From assembly GCF_037893015.1 (NCBI RefSeq), contig NC_133658.1, positions 258,953,856-259,017,855 on the forward strand: a stretch of DNA of 64,000 bases, written 5' to 3'. Positions 5,428-31,427 of the stretch are shown here, piece by piece. This DNA comes from Macrotis lagotis. Its lineage: Eukaryota > Chordata > Mammalia > Peramelemorphia > Peramelidae. Below the pieces are notes generated by a model. It was given only the letters and a program-made list of their open reading frames with translations, was not told the origin of the DNA and searched no databases. How positions within the stretch are numbered: the first letter of the stretch is position 1; every line of letters starts with the position of its first letter. The position numbers and the translations under genes were made by a program.

Positions 5428-6456
5428 AATAGGACTTCTGCCCAGGACAGTGGAAAGAAGACAGGCAAAGTTCTAAAATCTCCAGATCTTCCCCTATATA
5501 TGATATGAAACAAACCTCTTAACAGAAACCAGATCAACAAAACCCAGAAAGAAAAGCCAGGAGAAAGAACATCTATCTCAGGATTTGTCTTCAGTAGTTC
5601 AGGCACAAAGGGTTGACTCTGCCAGGATCATGAGAATGGGGAGAGCCTGGGTGCCTGGATAAGCTTCCAATTGGCCTGATTAGTGGCAGGGCTAGAGCCT
5701 GGGAGCCTGAGGGCCTGAGAACCAGACTGGCTTGATGAGTGGGGCTAGAGCCTGGTCCACCATGGGGGAGCTTGGGTCAACTAGGGAGCAGAGTCATTGG
5801 TGTTGGTGCTTACCCTTGGGAACTTGCCAATGGGACTGGGGGATGAGTTCTGGTGCAGGAGAGCTGTGGATATCATCCCTGGGCTCCTCTAGTCAGGAGG
5901 AACTCAGACTCCCCGCCTCCATTTCAGCTGAAGCCTCTTCTGAGAACAAACACAATTACAGACCTTCTGCCCCAGGTACAGGTGTAAGAGCAGCACAACC
6001 ATCTCAGCTGACAATAGAGAAAGTGATGGCCTCACCCCAAAGTATAGCCAACCATTGATTGAAGACAAAAGTATTTAACAGCTTCAATCACTCCCTCCAG
6101 ACCAAAAGAGAGGGCCTCAATCAAGTTCACAGACAATCCAAAGAAAGCAACCAGCACACCCTACTGGCCAGCTGGAAAAATTACACTCAGTGTGCAAATT
6201 CTCTATCACTCCCCTACTGGCCATATGGAGATATTACACTGAGTGAGTAAAGCTTCTAGGGATCCCAACACCAAACCTATGTGAACCAGCCCCTCACTAA
6301 CGTAAGATCTTAGCAAAATGAAGAAAGGTCAGTGGATAGGAAGGTCCATAGATAATCGCTTGGAAGGAAAAGACCCTAACTCAGAAAGACCTCGAACCTC
6401 TGAGGAGAATATGATCTGGTCTCCAGCACAAAAAGACTTCCTTAAAGAAATAGAAG

Positions 6457-6756
6457 GTGTTTAAAAATCGATTGGAAAATTTTGGAAAAGAAACCCAAGA
6501 GAAGATTAATACCTTGCAACAAGAAAACAAATCATTGGAAAATACAATTGGACAAATACAAAATGAGAATAATTCTCTCAGATCCTCAATTGGGCAAATA
6601 CAAAAAGAAAATAATTCTCTGAAAACCTCAAGGGGTCAAATGGAAAGATCTTTCAAAAATAGAATTGATCAATTGGAAAAGGAGGAGCAAAAGATAAATG
6701 AAGAAAAATCTTCTCTAAAAAAAGAATGGAGTCTGTGGAAACTAATGACTTCATGA
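6457..6756 (+). pseudogene. L1 ORF1 fragment: coiled coil with 14-residue repeats
   Basis: This 99-codon open stretch is the coiled-coil part of L1 ORF1, the RNA-binding chaperone of the L1 particle. Residues 17-58 form three 14-residue repeats: INTLQQENKSLENT, IGQIQNENNSLRSS and IGQIQKENNSLKTS. Each is two heptads. Upstream in-frame sequence (around 6,400-6,455, 'MIWSPAQKDFLKE'-like) belongs to ORF1 too but is separated by a stop just before this ATG, so the ATG at 6,457 is an artefact. The frame closes at 6,756, before the RRM-like and C-terminal domains. Confidence 0.75.
6505..6630 (+). repeat. Three 42-bp tandem units in ORF1 coiled coil
   Basis: Units at 6,505-6,546, 6,547-6,588 and 6,589-6,630 share the pattern AT(T/A)GGACAAATACAA..GA.AATAATTCTCT. 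The minus-strand L1 at 12.8-13.0 kb carries four such units. Confidence 0.8.
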
Positions 6757-8878: not shown

Positions 8879-9099
8879 TTAATTTAAATTTATTTTTATT
8901 AAAGATATTATTTGAGTTTTACATTTCCCCCCAATCTTGCTTCCTTCCCCCCTCCCCCCACAGAAAGCACTCTGTCAGTCTTTACTTTGTTTCCATGTTG
9001 TACCTTGATACAAATTGGGTGTTATGAGAGAGAAACCATATCCTTAAAGAGAAGAGAAGTCTAAGAGGTAAAAAGATCAGACAATAAGATATCTGTTTT

Positions 9100-12000
9100 T
9101 TTTTTTAATTAAAGGTAATAGTCCTTGCACTTTGTTCAAACTCCACAGCTCCTTATCTGGATACAGATGGCTCGCTCCTTTGCAGAAGCCCAGAACTGTT
9201 CCTGATTGTTGCACTGATGGAATGAGCGAGTCCTTCAAGGTTGAACATAACTCCCATGTTGCTGTTAGGGTGTACAGTGTATTTCTGGTTCTGCTCATCT
9301 CACTCAGCATCAGTTTATGGAAAACCCTCCAGGTTTCCCTGAAATCCCATCCCTCCTGGTTTCTAATAGAACAATAGTGTTCCATGACATACATATACCA
9401 CAGTTTGCTAAGCCTTTCCCCAATTGAAGGACATTTACTGGATTTCCAATTCTTTGCCGCCACGAACAGGGCTGCTATAAATATTTTCATACAAGTAATG
9501 TTTTTACCCTTTTTCCTCATCTCTTCAGGGTATAGACCCAGTGGTGGTATTGCTGGGTCAAAGGGTATGCTCATTATTGTTGCCCTTTGGGCATAGTTTC
9601 AAATAGCTCTCCAGAAGGGTTGGATGAGTTCACAGCTGCACCAACAGTGTAATAGTGTCCCAGATTTACCACAACCCTTCCAACAATGATCATTATCCTT
9701 CCTGGTCATATTGGCCAGTCTGAGAGGTGTGAGGTGGTACCTCAGAGAAGCTTTAATTTGCATTTCTGTAATTAATTATTGATTTGGAGCATTTTTTCAT
9801 ATGGCTATGGATTACTTTGATCTCTTCATCTGTTAATTGCCTTTGCATATCCTTTGACCATTTGTCAATTGGGGAATGTTTTTTTGTTTTAAAAATATGA
9901 CTCAGTTCTCTGTATATTTTAGAAATGAGTCCTTTGTCAGAATCATTAGTTGTAAAGATTGTTTCACAATTTACTACATTTCTTTTGATCTTGGTTACAT
10001 TGGTTTTATCTGTGCAAAAGCCTTTTAATTTAATGTAATTGAAATCATCTAATTGGTTTTAGTGATGTTCTCCAACTCTTCCTTAGTCATAAACTGTTCC
10101 CCTTTCCATAGATCTGATAGGTAGACTAGTCCTTGATCTTCTAATTTGCTTATCGTATTGTTTTTTATGTCTATGTCCTCTAACCATTTGGATCTTATCT
10201 TGGTAAAGGGTGTGAGGTGTTAGTCTAATCTAAGTTTCTTCCATAATAATGTCCAATTTTCCCAGCAACTTTTTATCAAATAGGGAGTTTTTATCCCAAT
10301 GGCTGGACTCTTTGGGTTTATCGAACAGCAGATTACTATAATCATCTCCTGCTTTTATACCTAGTCTATTCCACTGGTCCACCACTCTATTTCTTAGCCA
10401 ATACCATACATTTTTGATGACTGATGCTTTATAATATAATTTTTAAATCAGGTAGGGCTAAGCCACCTTCTTTTGCACTTTTTTTCATTAAGCTCCTGGC
10501 AATTCTTGACTTTTTATTTCTCCATATGAATTTACTTACAATTTTTTCTAACTCGTTAAAGTAATTTTTTGGAATTTTGATTGGTAGGGCGCTAAACAGA
10601 TAGTTTAGTTTTGGTAGAATTGTCATTTTTATTATATTAACTCTACCTATCCATGAGCAGTTGATATTTGCCCAGTTATTTAAATCTGATTTAATTTGTG
10701 TGAGAAGTGTTTTATAATTGTTTTCAAAACGATTCTGATTCTGTCTTGGCAAATAGACTCCCAAATATTTCATTTTGTCTGAGGTTACTTTGATTGGGAT
10801 TTCTCTTTCTAGCTCTTCCTGCTGTTTCTTGCTAGACATATATAGAAAAGTCAAGGGTTTATGAGAGTTTATTTTATAACCTGCAACTTTGCTAAAATTG
10901 CTAATTGTTTCCAGTAGTTTTTTAGATGATTACTTGGGATTCTCTAGGTATACCATCATGTCATCTGCAAAGAGTGAGAGTTTTGTCTCTTCCTTCCAAA
11001 TTCTAATTCCTTTAATTTCTTTTTCTTCTCTAATTGCTGATGCTAACATTTCTAATGCAATATTGAATAGTAGTGGTAATAATGAGCACCCTTGTTTCAC
11101 CCCTGATCTTATTGGGAATGCCTCTAGCCTCTCCCCATTGAATATAATGCTTGTTGATGGTTTCAGATAGATACTGCTAATTATTTTAAGGAACAGTCCA
11201 TTTATTCCTACACTCTCTAGTGTTTTTAATAGAAATGGATGCTGTATTTTGTCAAAAGCTTTTTCAGCATCTATTGATATGATCATATGATTTGTGATAG
11301 GTTTGTTGTTGATATAATTGAGTATACTAACAGTTTTCCTAATATTGAACCAACCCTGCATTCCTGGAATAAATCCTACTTGATAATAATGTATTATCCT
11401 AGTGATGACTTGTTGTAATCACTTTGCTAAGATTTTATTTAGGATTTTTGCATCTATATTCATTAGGGAGATAGGTCTATAATTTTCTTTCTCTGTTTTA
11501 ACACTTCCTGGTTTAGGTAACAGTACCATATTGGTTTCATGGAAAGAGTTAGGCAGAGTTCCATCTTTCCCTATTTTTCCAAAGAGTTTACATAGGATTG
11601 GAACCAATTGTTCCTTAAATGTTTGGTAGAATTCACTTGTGAAACCATCAGGCCCTGGAGATTTTTTTTAGGGAGTTCAGCAATGGCTTGTTGAATTTCT
11701 TTTTCTGAGATAGGGTTGTTTAGGTATTTAATCTCTTCTTCATTTAACCTGGGCAACTTATATTTTTGTAAATATTCATCCATTTCATTTAGATTATCAA
11801 ATTTATTGGCATAGAGTTAGGCAAAATAATTTTGAATTATTACTTTAATTGTCTCCTCATTGGTGGTGAGTTCACCTTTTTCATTTATGATGCTAGCATT
11901 TTGGTTTTCTTCTTTCTTTTTTAAATCAAATTGACTGGAGGTTTATCAATTTTATTGGTTTTTTCATAATACCAACTTTTGGTTTTATTTATTAATTCAA

Positions 12001-12540
12001 TAGTTATTTGCTTTCAATTTCATTAATTTCTCCTTTAATTTTTACAATTTCTAGTTTGGTACTTAATTGGGGATATTTGATTTGATCTTTCTCTCATTTT
12101 TTTAGTTGCATGTTTAGTTCATTGAATTCCTCTTTCTCCAATTTATTCATATAAGCATTTAGAGCTTTAATATATCCCCTGAGAGTCTCTTTGAATGAAT
12201 CCCATAGGTTTTGGCATGTTGTTTCATTATTATCATTATCTAGGATAAAATGGTTAATTCTTTCTATAATTTGCTTTTTGGTCCACTCATTTTTTAAAAT
12301 GAGGTTATTCAGTTTCCAATTTGTTCTGGGTCTGTATCTCCTTGGCCCGGTATTGCATATGACTTTTATTGCATTGTAATCTGAGAAAGATGTATTCACT
12401 ATTTCTGCCTTTCTGCAGTTGATCATTAGGTTTTTATGTCCTAGTACGTGGTCAATTTTTGCATAAGTTCCATTTACTGCAGAGAAAAAGGTATATTCCT
12501 TTCTATCCCCATTCAGTTTCCTCCATAAGTCTACTATATC
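9100..12540 (-). pseudogene. L1 ORF2 remnant (endonuclease end, RT, C-terminal region)
   Basis: Successive open stretches on the minus strand translate into ORF2 in order. 12,094-12,426 is the end of the endonuclease domain, with SDYNAIK where SDH is usual, so the catalytic His has changed. 11,571-11,783 and 11,419-11,607 are early RT, including PKPG and [17 protein letters not shown]. 10,930-11,361 holds the mid RT blocks, [17 protein letters not shown] and SLFADDMM. 10,429-10,854 is the thumb-proximal region. 9,077-9,574 is the C-terminal region. ORF2 normally nicks DNA and reverse-transcribes L1 RNA; this copy cannot, because of stops, frameshifts and the missing endonuclease start. Confidence 0.85.
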
Positions 12541-12794
12541 TAATCTTTTCAGGAAGTCCTATAATTTTCAGGTTGCCCCTCCTCAATCTATTCTCAAGGT
12601 CAGCTGTTTTTTTGATGAGGTATTTTACATTTGCTTCTATTTTTTCTATTTTTTTGATTTTATTTAACTGAGTCTTGCTGTCTCATGGAGTCATTAGTTT
12701 CTGTAGACTCCATTATTTTTTGGGGGGAGGAATTTTATTCATTAACCTTTTGCAACTCCTTTTGCAATTGGTCAATTCTACTTTGGAAAGAGCT

Positions 12795-27090: not shown

Positions 27091-27104
27091 GATATCCACT
27101 TCTT
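27091..27104. repeat. Target-site duplication, left copy (DUSP11 retrocopy)
   Basis: GATATCCACTTCTT, identical to 31,414-31,427. Confidence 0.93.
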
Positions 27105-27132
27105 TTTTTTTTTTTGATGAATAAAATGCCAA

Positions 27133-27138
27133 TTTATT
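27133..27138 (-). promoter_or_regulatory. Poly(A) signal AATAAA of the DUSP11 copy
   Basis: TTTATT on the plus strand reads AATAAA on the minus strand. It lies 17 bases before the start of the T run (27,105-27,115). Confidence 0.85.
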
Positions 27139-28859
27139 TAAACCTGTGAATTCATAACACCTTTAGGTCACAATGTTTTCTTAAAGATACTAACAGTACA
27201 ATTACTATTGGGAAGTTTTGTTATGCATTAAAAAATACACATTCTCGAGAAAGTTGGCAAGCACCAGTATAGGCAAAGTTGGAGACAAATTCATTAGTTA
27301 AAGGATAGGGTTATAAAACTGTTTTGCCAAACTTCCATGGAGGCCTAAAATCCCTCAATGCCAAGTTTATCCAAACTCTCCCCAGCTTTCAAACATTTAG
27401 GAAACAGTTCAGGGTCTAATGGCCATTTCCTTTTCAAGGTAGGGTGGATTTGAGCAACCCAGATCCCTGCGAAAAGATTGTGACTTGGATTCATAGCCAT
27501 TCTTAGAGACAGTGAGATGTAGTTGAGACTTGGAAGGCAGGAGATCTGGATTTAATTTAGAATCACTAACTTTGGGACCTTGGGGCAAATCTATCAATTA
27601 GTTTCTCATTTGGAAAATGGAGCTACTTGGTAAAACCTAGAGTATTACAAAAATAGGTGGAATTATTTCTGCTCACACAAACCCATTCTTAAATCAATCC
27701 TAGTCCTCTAGCTGACAGCTGCTGAGCTATATCAGCTCAGCTTTAGGAAAATCAATGAGAAGGAAGTGGGGAGGGAAGAGGAAGGGAGGGAGAGAGAAAT
27801 GGGGGGGTAGGTGTAGGGTGGAAGACCCAAGAAACCATCTTGTTGGCTTGGCAATGTGATTCCTTAATTTCAAGGCTCCCACAGGGGTCTTAAAGAGCTC
27901 GAATGAAAGCACCAGTTTCAGTTTTCTAAACATTCACTTTGTCCCTTCAAGGTTTTTCTGTCCAGTCTGTTCACTTTTTCTATAGCAATAACTTCTTCTT
28001 TGGAAGCTGCCCTTTGTGAGCTCTTTGAAGAGTTTGGATGAGAAATGAGCTCTTTTCTTCTATTGCTCTCATTTGCCTCCAGTCCTGGCCTTGTTTAATT
28101 CCAACTATATTTTCCTGGTACAGCTGGAGGAGTCATAGCTAGCAGGTCTCCTTGGCCCCTGGTCAGTCACTTTTCTGTAGCCGTCAATACAAAAAAAAAA
28201 GGTTCCCGGCAGCCGATTGTGACTAGGATGGGCTTTGTGGTCACTTGTGTGCCAGGTGGATCCTGGCTTATGAAGGGATGTCTCCACACGTGACATACAA
28301 CACAGTAGCTCTGCCTTCTCCACTGGGTTAACATGGGGTTTCTTGAACACAAATTGAATACTGAACATTCTTACCTCCATCCACGTAATCAGAGGTGATT
28401 GTTGAAAAGATCTGAGCTCTTCCTGACGTAGGCCAGGTGACAAGGAGACAAACTGGGTGTGAAGCAAGGAATTCCAAGACAGAACTAGTTTTTCTTTTGG
28501 AAGCAATGGCAAGATTCTGTCAGTTCAATCCAAGGAAGGTCCAAGGTCATTTTTCATGACTAGTAGTAGTCTGCTCATTTGTTAAGTGGGAATAATGCTT
28601 GTCCAGGTGGTTGTGGGGGAAATGCTCTGTAAAGCTTGAAGCACCACAGGAGGTAAGCCCGATCTATTGTCAACGCGATTCCAGAGCCACCAGAGCGTGG
28701 CCAGGTCGGCTGCCAGTCTATGTAGCTCTTTAGAGTTTACAAAGCACTTGAGACAGGAAGTTGCTATCTGGGCCTCATGATGCACCTGTGAGGTAGCGGG
28801 CAGCTGTCATTAACCCTATTTTACAGAGGAGCAAATAGTTCTTGTAGTTAAATGAGTGG

Positions 28860-29000
28860 AATGTAGCTTGGCACAGTGGAAGAGTTACTGGTACCAGAGT
28901 TAGAGGACTTGGCTTCCAAAACCACCTTTGATGATTACTTCCTGTCCCGGGGCAAGTCCCTTCAGCTGCCTTGGTCTCTGTTTTCTCATGGGTAAAAATC
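28860..29000 (+). mobile_element. MIR-type remnant in DUSP11 3'UTR
   Basis: GTAGCTTGGCACAGTGGAAG, GGACTTGGCTTCCAAAACC, TTACTTCCTGTCCCGGGGCAA and TCTGTTTTCTCATGGG fit an MIR head and core. It is antisense to the DUSP11 transcript. Confidence 0.65.
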
Positions 29001-29499
29001 CAAAATGGCCTCCAAGGACCTTTCTCTCCGTCTAGTGTCCTTTGACTAGCCCAAGGGCCCACAGTATTGTGTGATTCAAGCCTAGGATCCAAGAGTGTTA
29101 CTCTCAAATGCACAGGCTTATTATTAGTTACCAAGTCTCCCTAGAAGCAATTTGCTTAAGGACAGAAATGGGAAGATGAGCTACTGATGAGGTTAGAGCC
29201 TTCTTTAAATTTCATCCTGAAGCTATCAAATGAATGGAATGAAAGATCAGCTCTAATCTTGGCAGTGCTAGGACCACCTAAGTTTGAGCTGACTGATTAA
29301 GAACATGGAAAGAGGAGAGAAACCGTAAGAAAAGCTGCTGCCACTGGGTGGTATATTCCTGGAGTGGATAAGGGCACTAGACTAAGTTTGACAGGAATAT
29401 TCTTTTGGCAATCTCCAATATCCCTTTCTAATTTTTTTCTCTCCGACAAATAATCTTATGATTTATAATTTTATTACTCGTGTAGGATGACCCACTAGG

Positions 29500-29675
29500 T
29501 TCATGGGGTCTGTAGAAGTCACTGATTCCAACTCCCTCATTTTAAAGATGAGGAAACCAAGGCCTATGGAAATGAGGTGATTGCCAAGGTCACACAAACT
29601 ATTAAGTGCTATATCTGGATTCTTGACTACAAGACCAGTGCACTCTATTCACAGTGCCACACTGCTGTCCTGGGG
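29500..29675 (-). mobile_element. MIR remnant in DUSP11 3'UTR
   Basis: CATTTTAAAGATGAGGAAACC, GTGATTGCCAAGGTCACACA, ATCTGGATTCTTGACTAC and TCTATTCACAGTGCCACACTGC are a reverse-complement MIR, sense with respect to the DUSP11 transcript. Confidence 0.75.
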
Positions 29676-30277
29676 CTGATGGCAGATGTCAATTATGTTA
29701 AGAAGTCTATTTTTTCCTTTAAACTGGAAATTTTGTTCATTTTGCTCTTTTACTAAGAGATGTGGTTAGCTTGAATATCTCTGGGTAAACTGATCAACTC
29801 TCACTTTGGGACTTGTTGACTTGGGACTTAAGCCTGGTGCTTGGGCATCATCCCAGAGCGGCCATTCTCAGAGGCCCTGACAGGTCTAACCCTAAAGAGA
29901 TTGTCTCCTAGGAAGGCTGTAAAGCTAAATTCTGAACACAATAAAAAAAATGGTGTTAATGACCATGGATCAATAAATAAATATAATAAAGACCACTTAA
30001 AAATGTTACTAAAATAATAAAACAATAAAAAAGTTTAACTGGTAAATCTAGATATGCAAGTTAATTTTTGGTAATCTGCAGTGGAGGCTCATTGGCCAAA
30101 ATCTAAAATGCCATCTTGTTTTAAAAATTTCAGGTATGACATGGGATTTAAAAAATTTCACCATCTCAAATACACTTCAACCCCATTAGCAAAGTGGTAA
30201 AAAAAATTATAATTTCTCCCTAAGCTTGCCTGGGAAAGCAGTAAAACAGATGGTGATCCTCCCTTGATTTGGCCTGT

Positions 30278-30490
30278 CTAAACATCGTGCCAATTATTTT
30301 CTTCCATTTGATTTCTACAAATCTGTGACTGTCTATCTGTTCCCCATTGGTCTGGAAAATATGGTCCATTATCACTGTTAAGTTTCTGTCTTTTGTTCCA
30401 AGGAGGGAGATTATAGTTGGGTTTTAGATTCCAAGTATATCTGCTCTGAGAATAGTCCTCTCTAGCTGGGCCTGGAGGAGGCAAAGGGGG
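30278..30490 (-). pseudogene. DUSP11 C-terminal tail, out of frame with the phosphatase part
   Basis: In the next frame, the text LPPPGPAREDYSQSRYTWNL matches the proline-rich C-terminal motif of DUSP11 as I recall it in human (LPPPGPPGEDYSHRRYSWN). The switch of frame falls at or near the six-C run (30,486-30,491 on the plus strand as G6). This frame ends at a stop before 30,278. Confidence 0.85.
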
Positions 30491-31274
30491 GATGGCTTCC
30501 CACATTTTGGCAAGAATAATTCCGTCTCTGTTGGTTTTTCCTGGATGACTGGTAGAAATCTCGGGGCTGTGAGTGGAACTCTCGCAGATGGGATCGAAAG
30601 TCTCTGGGTTGAGAGTGGAACTCATGGGCCTGGTAGTGGAAGTCATCTTGGGGCTGGGGGCAGAAGTCTCGAGACCAATGAAAGGTCCGTCTCTGGCCAT
30701 GATAGTCAGTTTCATGGGTGTTGTAAAAGTTTCTCCTCTTGATAAATGATGATTCTTCAAAATGGTCTGGCCTTAAAGAACCATCATTCTTTCTAATTGC
30801 TCCATGCCGAACATCATCAATGTAATTCTGCCTTTCTATAGCATGTCCTCGACATCTATTGAACAATTGCATCGCATCATTCGGTCTCATGCCTTCAACA
30901 TCAATCAAATACCAGCAAACAAGATATCCTGTTCTGTTTAAACCATGTGCACAGTGGACTCCAATCAGTTTGTCATTATGTTGGTTTTCTTTCAAGAATT
31001 TGTTCACTGCACATTTGAATTTAAAAATTGTGTCATCATCAGGCACCTGGTGTCCAACAGTAAAAATCTTTAAATAAGGAAGAGCCTCTGGCAAATCCTT
31101 TGGTTTATAATAGCGTTGAGTGTATGTTAAATCGATGATCCAGCCAAGCTCTTCATTCTGCTCTCTTATTTTGTTAACAAGATCCAAAGGGGAAAAGCGT
31201 TCTTCTGGGGCAAGTTTTTCTTCAAAACTCTTTTTTAAAGGAACTTTAAAAGCAATGAAACGTGTCCCGGTCAT
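30462..31274 (-). CDS. DUSP11: DUSP11-like phosphatase ORF (270 aa) in the retrocopy
   Basis: This is an open frame of 270 codons starting MTGTRFIAFKVPL, homologous to DUSP11. The catalytic P-loop H107-C108-A-H-G-L-N-R114-T is intact (CX5R). It is preceded by IIDLTYTQRYYKP (residues 46-58) and YLKIFTVGHQVPDD, both typical of the RNA-triphosphatase type of DSP. NRCRGHAIERQNYI follows the domain. Residues 200-240 are rich in H, Q, R and F with the octamer FHSQPRDF twice. Human DUSP11 starts about 45 residues earlier; here the codons before Met read NHLLVGQR in frame, then a stop farther up, so the N-terminus is shortened. A Trp (residue 121, YLVCWYLI) stands where I recall Arg, which fits CpG decay. 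The natural C-terminus is lost by a frameshift near residue 262. Whether it is transcribed is unknown; it may simply be a young pseudogene. Confidence 0.85.
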   Translation of the reverse strand: MTGTRFIAFKVPLKKSFEEKLAPEERFSPLDLVNKIREQNEELGWIIDLTYTQRYYKPKDLPEALPYLKIFTVGHQVPDDDTIFKFKCAVNKFLKENQHNDKLIGVHCAHGLNRTGYLVCWYLIDVEGMRPNDAMQLFNRCRGHAIERQNYIDDVRHGAIRKNDGSLRPDHFEESSFIKRRNFYNTHETDYHGQRRTFHWSRDFCPQPQDDFHYQAHEFHSQPRDFRSHLREFHSQPRDFYQSSRKNQQRRNYSCQNVGSHPPFASSRPS

Positions 31275-31413
31275 CCGCTGTCCAACAAGGAGGTGGTTCG
31301 CGCCCTTCCCCCGGCCGCCGCCATCGACGCCGCCGTCCCCTCAGCTCCGGGACCCGTGCCCGCCCGGCCCCCGTGCCTCCGGCCTCGGCCCGGCCGCCCC
31401 GCGCCTGCGCCTC
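31275..31413 (-). other. GC-rich 5'UTR/N-terminal part of the DUSP11 copy
   Basis: 139 bases of very high GC with many CpGs. An upstream ATG at 31,322-31,324 (minus strand, ATGGCGGCGGCCGGGGG) opens a 17-codon frame whose TGA overlaps the ATG of the main frame (ATGA at 31,271-31,274). One base more or less in the five-G run (31,308-31,312) would put the first residues, MAAAG, in frame with KGANH of the DUSP11 N-terminal region, so this ATG is probably the parent start. Confidence 0.65.
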
Positions 31414-31427
31414 GATATCCACTTCTT
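31414..31427. repeat. Target-site duplication, right copy (DUSP11 retrocopy)
   Basis: GATATCCACTTCTT, identical to 27,091-27,104. Confidence 0.93.

Follow-up and report, generated by a model that had tools for sequence, protein, structure and literature searches.

A Near-Full-Length Processed Copy of DUSP11 in Macrotis lagotis, Most Likely a Pseudogene Without a Functional Phosphatase

Overview

Positions 27091-31427 of the 64,000-nt stretch of Macrotis lagotis DNA analyzed here (the window) hold an intronless, minus-strand copy of a DUSP11 mRNA that ends in a poly(A) tail and is flanked by a perfect 14-bp target-site duplication. We read it as an L1-type processed pseudogene of DUSP11 that is drifting and most likely encodes no functional phosphatase, and we put the probability of this reading at roughly 93%. 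The copy is an ordinary processed pseudogene in good preservation and with clear boundaries. It is like other L1-mediated processed pseudogenes in being intronless, in carrying an A tail after AATAAA and a duplication, in having an intron-bearing parent elsewhere and in its later decay, and it differs from them in nothing essential, although it is near full length (~4.2 kb) and has suffered large losses only in the GC-rich 5′ end and the coding start.

Boundaries of the Insert and Its Parent Gene

Read on the sense strand, the insert runs from GC-rich DNA through a DUSP11-like frame and a long 3′ UTR to an AATAAA signal and an A run. The same 14 letters, GATATCCACTTCTT, stand at both edges as an exact 14/14 match, at 27091-27104 on the poly(A) side and at 31414-31427 on the 5′ side of the insert, and occur nowhere else on either strand of the window. 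The poly(A) tail appears as a run of 13 T on the plus strand (27103-27115; minus-strand feature), two of which are common with the duplication, and the AATAAA polyadenylation signal (27133-27138, minus strand, read by eye) lies 17 nt 5′ of the A run in the sense direction. This signal is also present in the parent, which reads CAGTGGCTTC at the position of the copy's A run and has no A run there. The copied 3′ untranslated region (27116-30277, minus strand) is collinear with parent exon 9. At the opposite edge lies a remnant of exon 1 (31295-31413, minus strand) made up of CpG-rich 5′ UTR and N-terminal codons, and GC content over the insert's first 150 nt is 80%, with 23 CpG, the whole window being 34.6% GC. 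The perfect duplication, the T run with its nearby signal and the GC-rich 5′ edge had all been described in the original prediction, and each is borne out.

The parent was sought in the genome (3,655,600,598 bases in 607 contigs) both with the insert and with the protein, only the best candidates being scored; the insert search scored the best 40 of 71 candidates and gave 48 match rows, from which we followed the parent, two sister copies (L012 and L013), a copy on C5 and a copy at C1:307 Mb. Among the best candidates scored with the insert, a single locus was split into exons (C1:10581146-10598217), and the best candidates scored in the protein search of the genome included no second multi-exon DUSP11 locus. 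The gene model at this locus has nine exons (C1:10581147-10598259) with GT-AG at 8/8 introns and sits on the same contig as the copy, ~248 Mb apart from it. Its last exon and the copy are 97.35% identical over 3438 aligned positions. The copy runs without a break across seven of the eight exon junctions (2 to 8), and the remaining one, junction 1, falls inside a 24-bp deletion, in agreement with the earlier claim that the copy has no introns. The multi-exon parent for which a search had been proposed is thus in hand, and the outcomes that the proposal had set against itself, introns at the site or no parent elsewhere, were not found within this genome. The parent is probably the DUSP11 ortholog, judging by its sequence and its position as the sole multi-exon locus found; TPRKB (PF08617), the neighbour of DUSP11 in human, gave three matches, two at C1:20.74 Mb and one on C9, none of them beside the parent at C1:10.58 Mb, and so gave no sign of synteny with human.

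The existence of a parent gene, the loss of its introns, the A tail and the target-site duplication lead us to infer that machinery of the L1 type was the agent, as had been proposed. A spliced, polyadenylated DUSP11 mRNA would have been captured in the germline by this machinery, which would have nicked the target at TCTT/GA, used the poly(A) tail for priming, copied ~4.2 kb and left the 14-bp duplication. GC-rich 5′ pieces, the start codon among them, were lost during copying or later, and the copy has afterward drifted without detectable selection. The statement that an almost complete ~4.2-kb mRNA had been copied stands overall, but ~124 bp are gone near the 5′ end. The consensus nick site of the L1 endonuclease is TTTT/AA, and the site of the copy (read by eye) is two letters off this consensus; such a partial match is a point against the pseudogene reading. 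No place in the genome matches both flanks as a paralogous empty site would: the left flank has 3 other matches and the right 14, at 68-81% identity, none common to the two sets.

Lesions in the Coding Region

The coding start of the copy has been damaged twice. About 100 bp of exon 1 are missing, the native ATG included, with exact breakpoints that are uncertain (GC repeats), and an in-frame deletion of 24 bp between two ACCTCCC repeats (31294-31295, minus strand) has removed PDRWKDYL together with the exon 1/2 junction. Alternative splicing was considered for the lost exon 1/2 sequence and rejected, as the end of the 24-bp gap offers no AG acceptor; nor, by eye and within its uncertain breakpoints, does the exon 1 gap seem to end on one. 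Deletion or template slippage is for this reason the preferred explanation. In two of the three near-full-length copies parts of this GC-rich stretch are gone, between borders that differ, and this points to fragile DNA or to a reverse transcriptase that slips there.

Further downstream, a run of six C, five in the parent, L012 and L013, introduces a +1 frameshift (30491, minus strand). The shifted frame meets a premature stop at 30462-30464, 182 nt 5′ of the position of the native stop codon (30278-30280, minus strand), which lies outside the frame of the 270-codon ORF. This ORF (30462-31274, minus strand) spans the DUSP11 catalytic domain and part of the tail with an out-of-frame end, and begins at an internal Met that corresponds to codon 50 of the 380-codon parent frame. 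As the original prediction stated, it is a DUSP11 frame with HCAHGLNRTG: it matches the human DUSP11 structures 4jmj, 4mbb, and 4nyh (E 8e-89 or better) and, more weakly, 9h2j_O (named tyrosine-protein phosphatase), 1yn9_A (polynucleotide 5′-phosphatase) and mRNA capping enzymes, and Pfam recognizes DSPc at 52.1 bits (cut-off 33.5). The 270 open codons and the intact P-loop Cys and Arg are points against the pseudogene reading. The substitutions of the copy include T158A in the P-loop (ACA to GCA, HCTHGLNR to HCAHGLNR; 30948-30950, minus strand, coordinates read by eye) and R170W, also found in L013. Set beside DUSP11 itself (PIR1, RNA/RNP complex-1-interacting phosphatase), the copy has a clearly homologous catalytic domain with the same P-loop Cys and Arg, but it lacks the native start and PDRWKDYL, its C-terminus is shifted and it carries T158A and R170W.

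Substitution Pattern, Sister Copies and Age

From codon 50 onward, the coding part has accumulated 17 substitutions on the branch of the copy, 14 nonsynonymous (three of them common to L013) and 3 synonymous. Neutral simulation gives a mean of 12.8/17 nonsynonymous and P(N<=14) of 0.82, whereas the parent branch has 1 nonsynonymous and 5 synonymous changes with P(N<=observed) of 0.0035; each test used 2000 simulated sets. In these simulations, and in that of stop codons below, CpG sites are taken to mutate at five times the normal rate and transitions to make up 60% of changes. The sister copies have 17 nonsynonymous and 4 synonymous changes (L012) and 15 and 1 (L013). On 17 changes and the assumed mutation model, the branch of the copy shows no sign of purifying selection. 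When decay by 17 substitutions was simulated neutrally, the frame stayed stop-free in 42% of runs, so that its being open does not argue for use. We infer from the lesions and the neutral pattern that function is absent.

Two other copies are near full length with ~96% identity, L012 at C1:649563763-649567951 and L013 at C6:154099863-154104021. By eye, L012 has a duplication of ~12 bp, AAAGATAATCTG, and L013 one of ~14 bp with one mismatch and leading A's that are common with its tail; the nick site of L013 reads TTTT/AA. Both are broken, L012 by 3 stop codons and L013 by a 24-bp deletion at a site other than that in the window copy, a 4-bp deletion and the loss of 160 bp of exon 1. Also recovered were an older copy at C5:141034439 (73%), which is heavily broken and has 14 stops within a single stretch, and, at C1:307310873, a 3′ fragment (87%).

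Over 4101 gapless columns there are 52 private changes in the window copy, 74 in L012, 55 in L013 and 31 in the parent. Shared pair patterns number 3, 2, and 1 for the 3′ UTR, against 3, 0, and 0 for the coding sequence. Given similar private counts and few pair patterns, the window copy and L013 are about equally old, and L012, with more private changes (74 vs. 52 and 55), may be older. All 3 coding patterns unite the window copy and L013 against the parent and L012, as would be expected if these two copies had a common source. However, two of the three are C-to-T changes at CpG, which are prone to parallel change, and the 3′ UTR has only 1 pattern that unites the two, so these two copies cannot be placed in order.

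The private divergence of the copy is 1.27% on gapless columns, or 1.24% when columns with gaps are counted too (52 changes, 4179 columns). This translates into an age of 21, 11, or 5.6 My at 0.585, 1.17, and 2.2e-9 substitutions per site per year, respectively, and the epithet "young" given to the copy in the original prediction holds in a relative sense only. The fastest of these rates, 2.2e-9 per site per year, is a mammalian average, and the middle one assumes one generation a year. The slowest combines the devil rate of 1.17e-9 per generation with a generation time of 2 years, as given in the bilby genome paper (PMC11239497). The same paper places the split between the greater and the lesser bilby at ~3 My (PMC11239497). 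Since all age estimates exceed this value, we predict that the copy will be found in both bilbies.

A Base Missing from the Parent Gene as Assembled

As assembled, exon 3 of the parent (C1:10592706-10592836) reads CCCCGAAG and is one base short, with no A before GAAG. This A is present in all three near-full-length copies and in the old one on C5. The missing base shifts the frame, and the parent product is therefore 93 aa in the assembly. The parent region of 23 kb contains zero N, and apart from this base the branch of the parent shows conservation (1 nonsynonymous, 5 synonymous). The assembly is described as built from ~10x HiFi with linked-read polishing (PMC11239497). Our reading is that the base is missing through an error of assembly, or else in an allele of very recent origin. 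There is a slim chance that the animal sequenced truly carries the deletion and that the lineage is losing DUSP11, in which case the retrocopy might supply leftover activity; the copy would then be the longest ATG-started open catalytic frame among the DUSP11 loci found here. DUSP11 controls the sensitivity of RIG-I to 5′-triphosphate RNA (PMC7706711), and the missing base is worth checking for this reason.

Alternative Explanations

The original prediction saw in the copy a possible lineage-specific retrogene, which would make a shortened, tail-less RNA triphosphatase from the internal ATG. The open 270 codons with their P-loop residues are compatible with this, and the GC-rich 5′ DNA carried along with the copy could hold promoter activity. 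The viral DUSP11 of avipoxviruses also provides a precedent for a DUSP11 core that is active without the long tail: a fusion with residues 1-197 of SWPV vDUSP11 was active, so that the C-terminal tail is dispensable in this viral relative (PMC12058148). Those are active viral genes, however, whereas the copy is decaying in its own host lineage. Translation from the internal Met would omit 17-21 residues that are present in the human crystal constructs, and it would have to contend with an upstream ATG in the exon 1 remnant, which opens an out-of-frame ORF of 17 codons ending in a stop that overlaps the codon of that Met. T158A and R170W alter sites at which T and R are found in 5/5 compared chains (three human DUSP11, 9h2j_O and 1yn9_A). 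With the native start gone, the tail shifted, 14/17 nonsynonymous changes against a neutral 12.8 and a frame that survives by chance in 42% of simulations, this proposal does not hold up well, and we regard such a retrogene as improbable.

A transcribed non-coding copy could instead act on the parent: it might give rise to antisense or small RNA, or serve the regulators of the 3.2-kb 3′ UTR as a decoy. Retention of almost the whole 3′ UTR at ~97% identity would fit such a role, but age alone accounts for this identity and the 3′ UTR has more private changes in the copy (40) than in the parent (25), which leaves the idea rather far-fetched. It is barely credible that the insert is a segmental duplication of an older retrocopy and did not arise by its own retroposition: three near-full-length copies of similar divergence might hint at this, yet flanks, duplication and exon 1 end are distinct in each of the three (by eye) and shared pair patterns are few. 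An L1-type processed pseudogene, drifting since its insertion, is the reading we prefer.

Concluding Remarks

Our literature search on DUSP11 with retrogene, retrocopy or marsupial found no paper, and none of the matches listed for DUSP11 with pseudogene names a DUSP11 pseudogene in its title or abstract opening. Were a protein made from the copy, 5′-triphosphate RNA processing would gain a new source, but the evidence is against this. The copy offers a clean example, from a marsupial, of a long mRNA that has undergone L1-type retroposition, and together with its two sister copies of similar divergence it forms a useful neutral clock.

The parent DUSP11 gene (L010) was the sole multi-exon DUSP11 locus found among the best-scored candidates in the genome, and its reading frame, as assembled, is broken after approximately 72 codons. 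On sequence comparison, exon 3 (G000:C1:10592706-10592836) lacks one A that is present in four retrocopies, namely the window copy, L012, L013, and the C5 copy, and this absence may reflect an assembly error, a recent allele, or gene loss.

Differing parts of one GC-rich 5' stretch in exon 1 are gone from two of the three near-full-length retrocopies, the window copy (exon 1, 31295-31413) and L013, a pattern as if reverse transcription had slipped there. The sister retrocopy L012 (G000:C1:649561500-649570500) lies within what we take to be L1 ORF1-like sequence (locus positions ~1900-2080 and 6450-6550), and paralogous empty sites for its insertion should therefore exist. Elsewhere in the window, at 9077-12558 (-), several open stretches, split among separate frames, were judged by eye to resemble pieces of L1 ORF2 reverse transcriptase.

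The genome also holds further, older DUSP11 retrocopies, L014 (G000:C5:141032500-141037500) and the 3' fragment L015 (G000:C1:307308500-307313500), so DUSP11 has been a recurrent source of retrocopies in this lineage.
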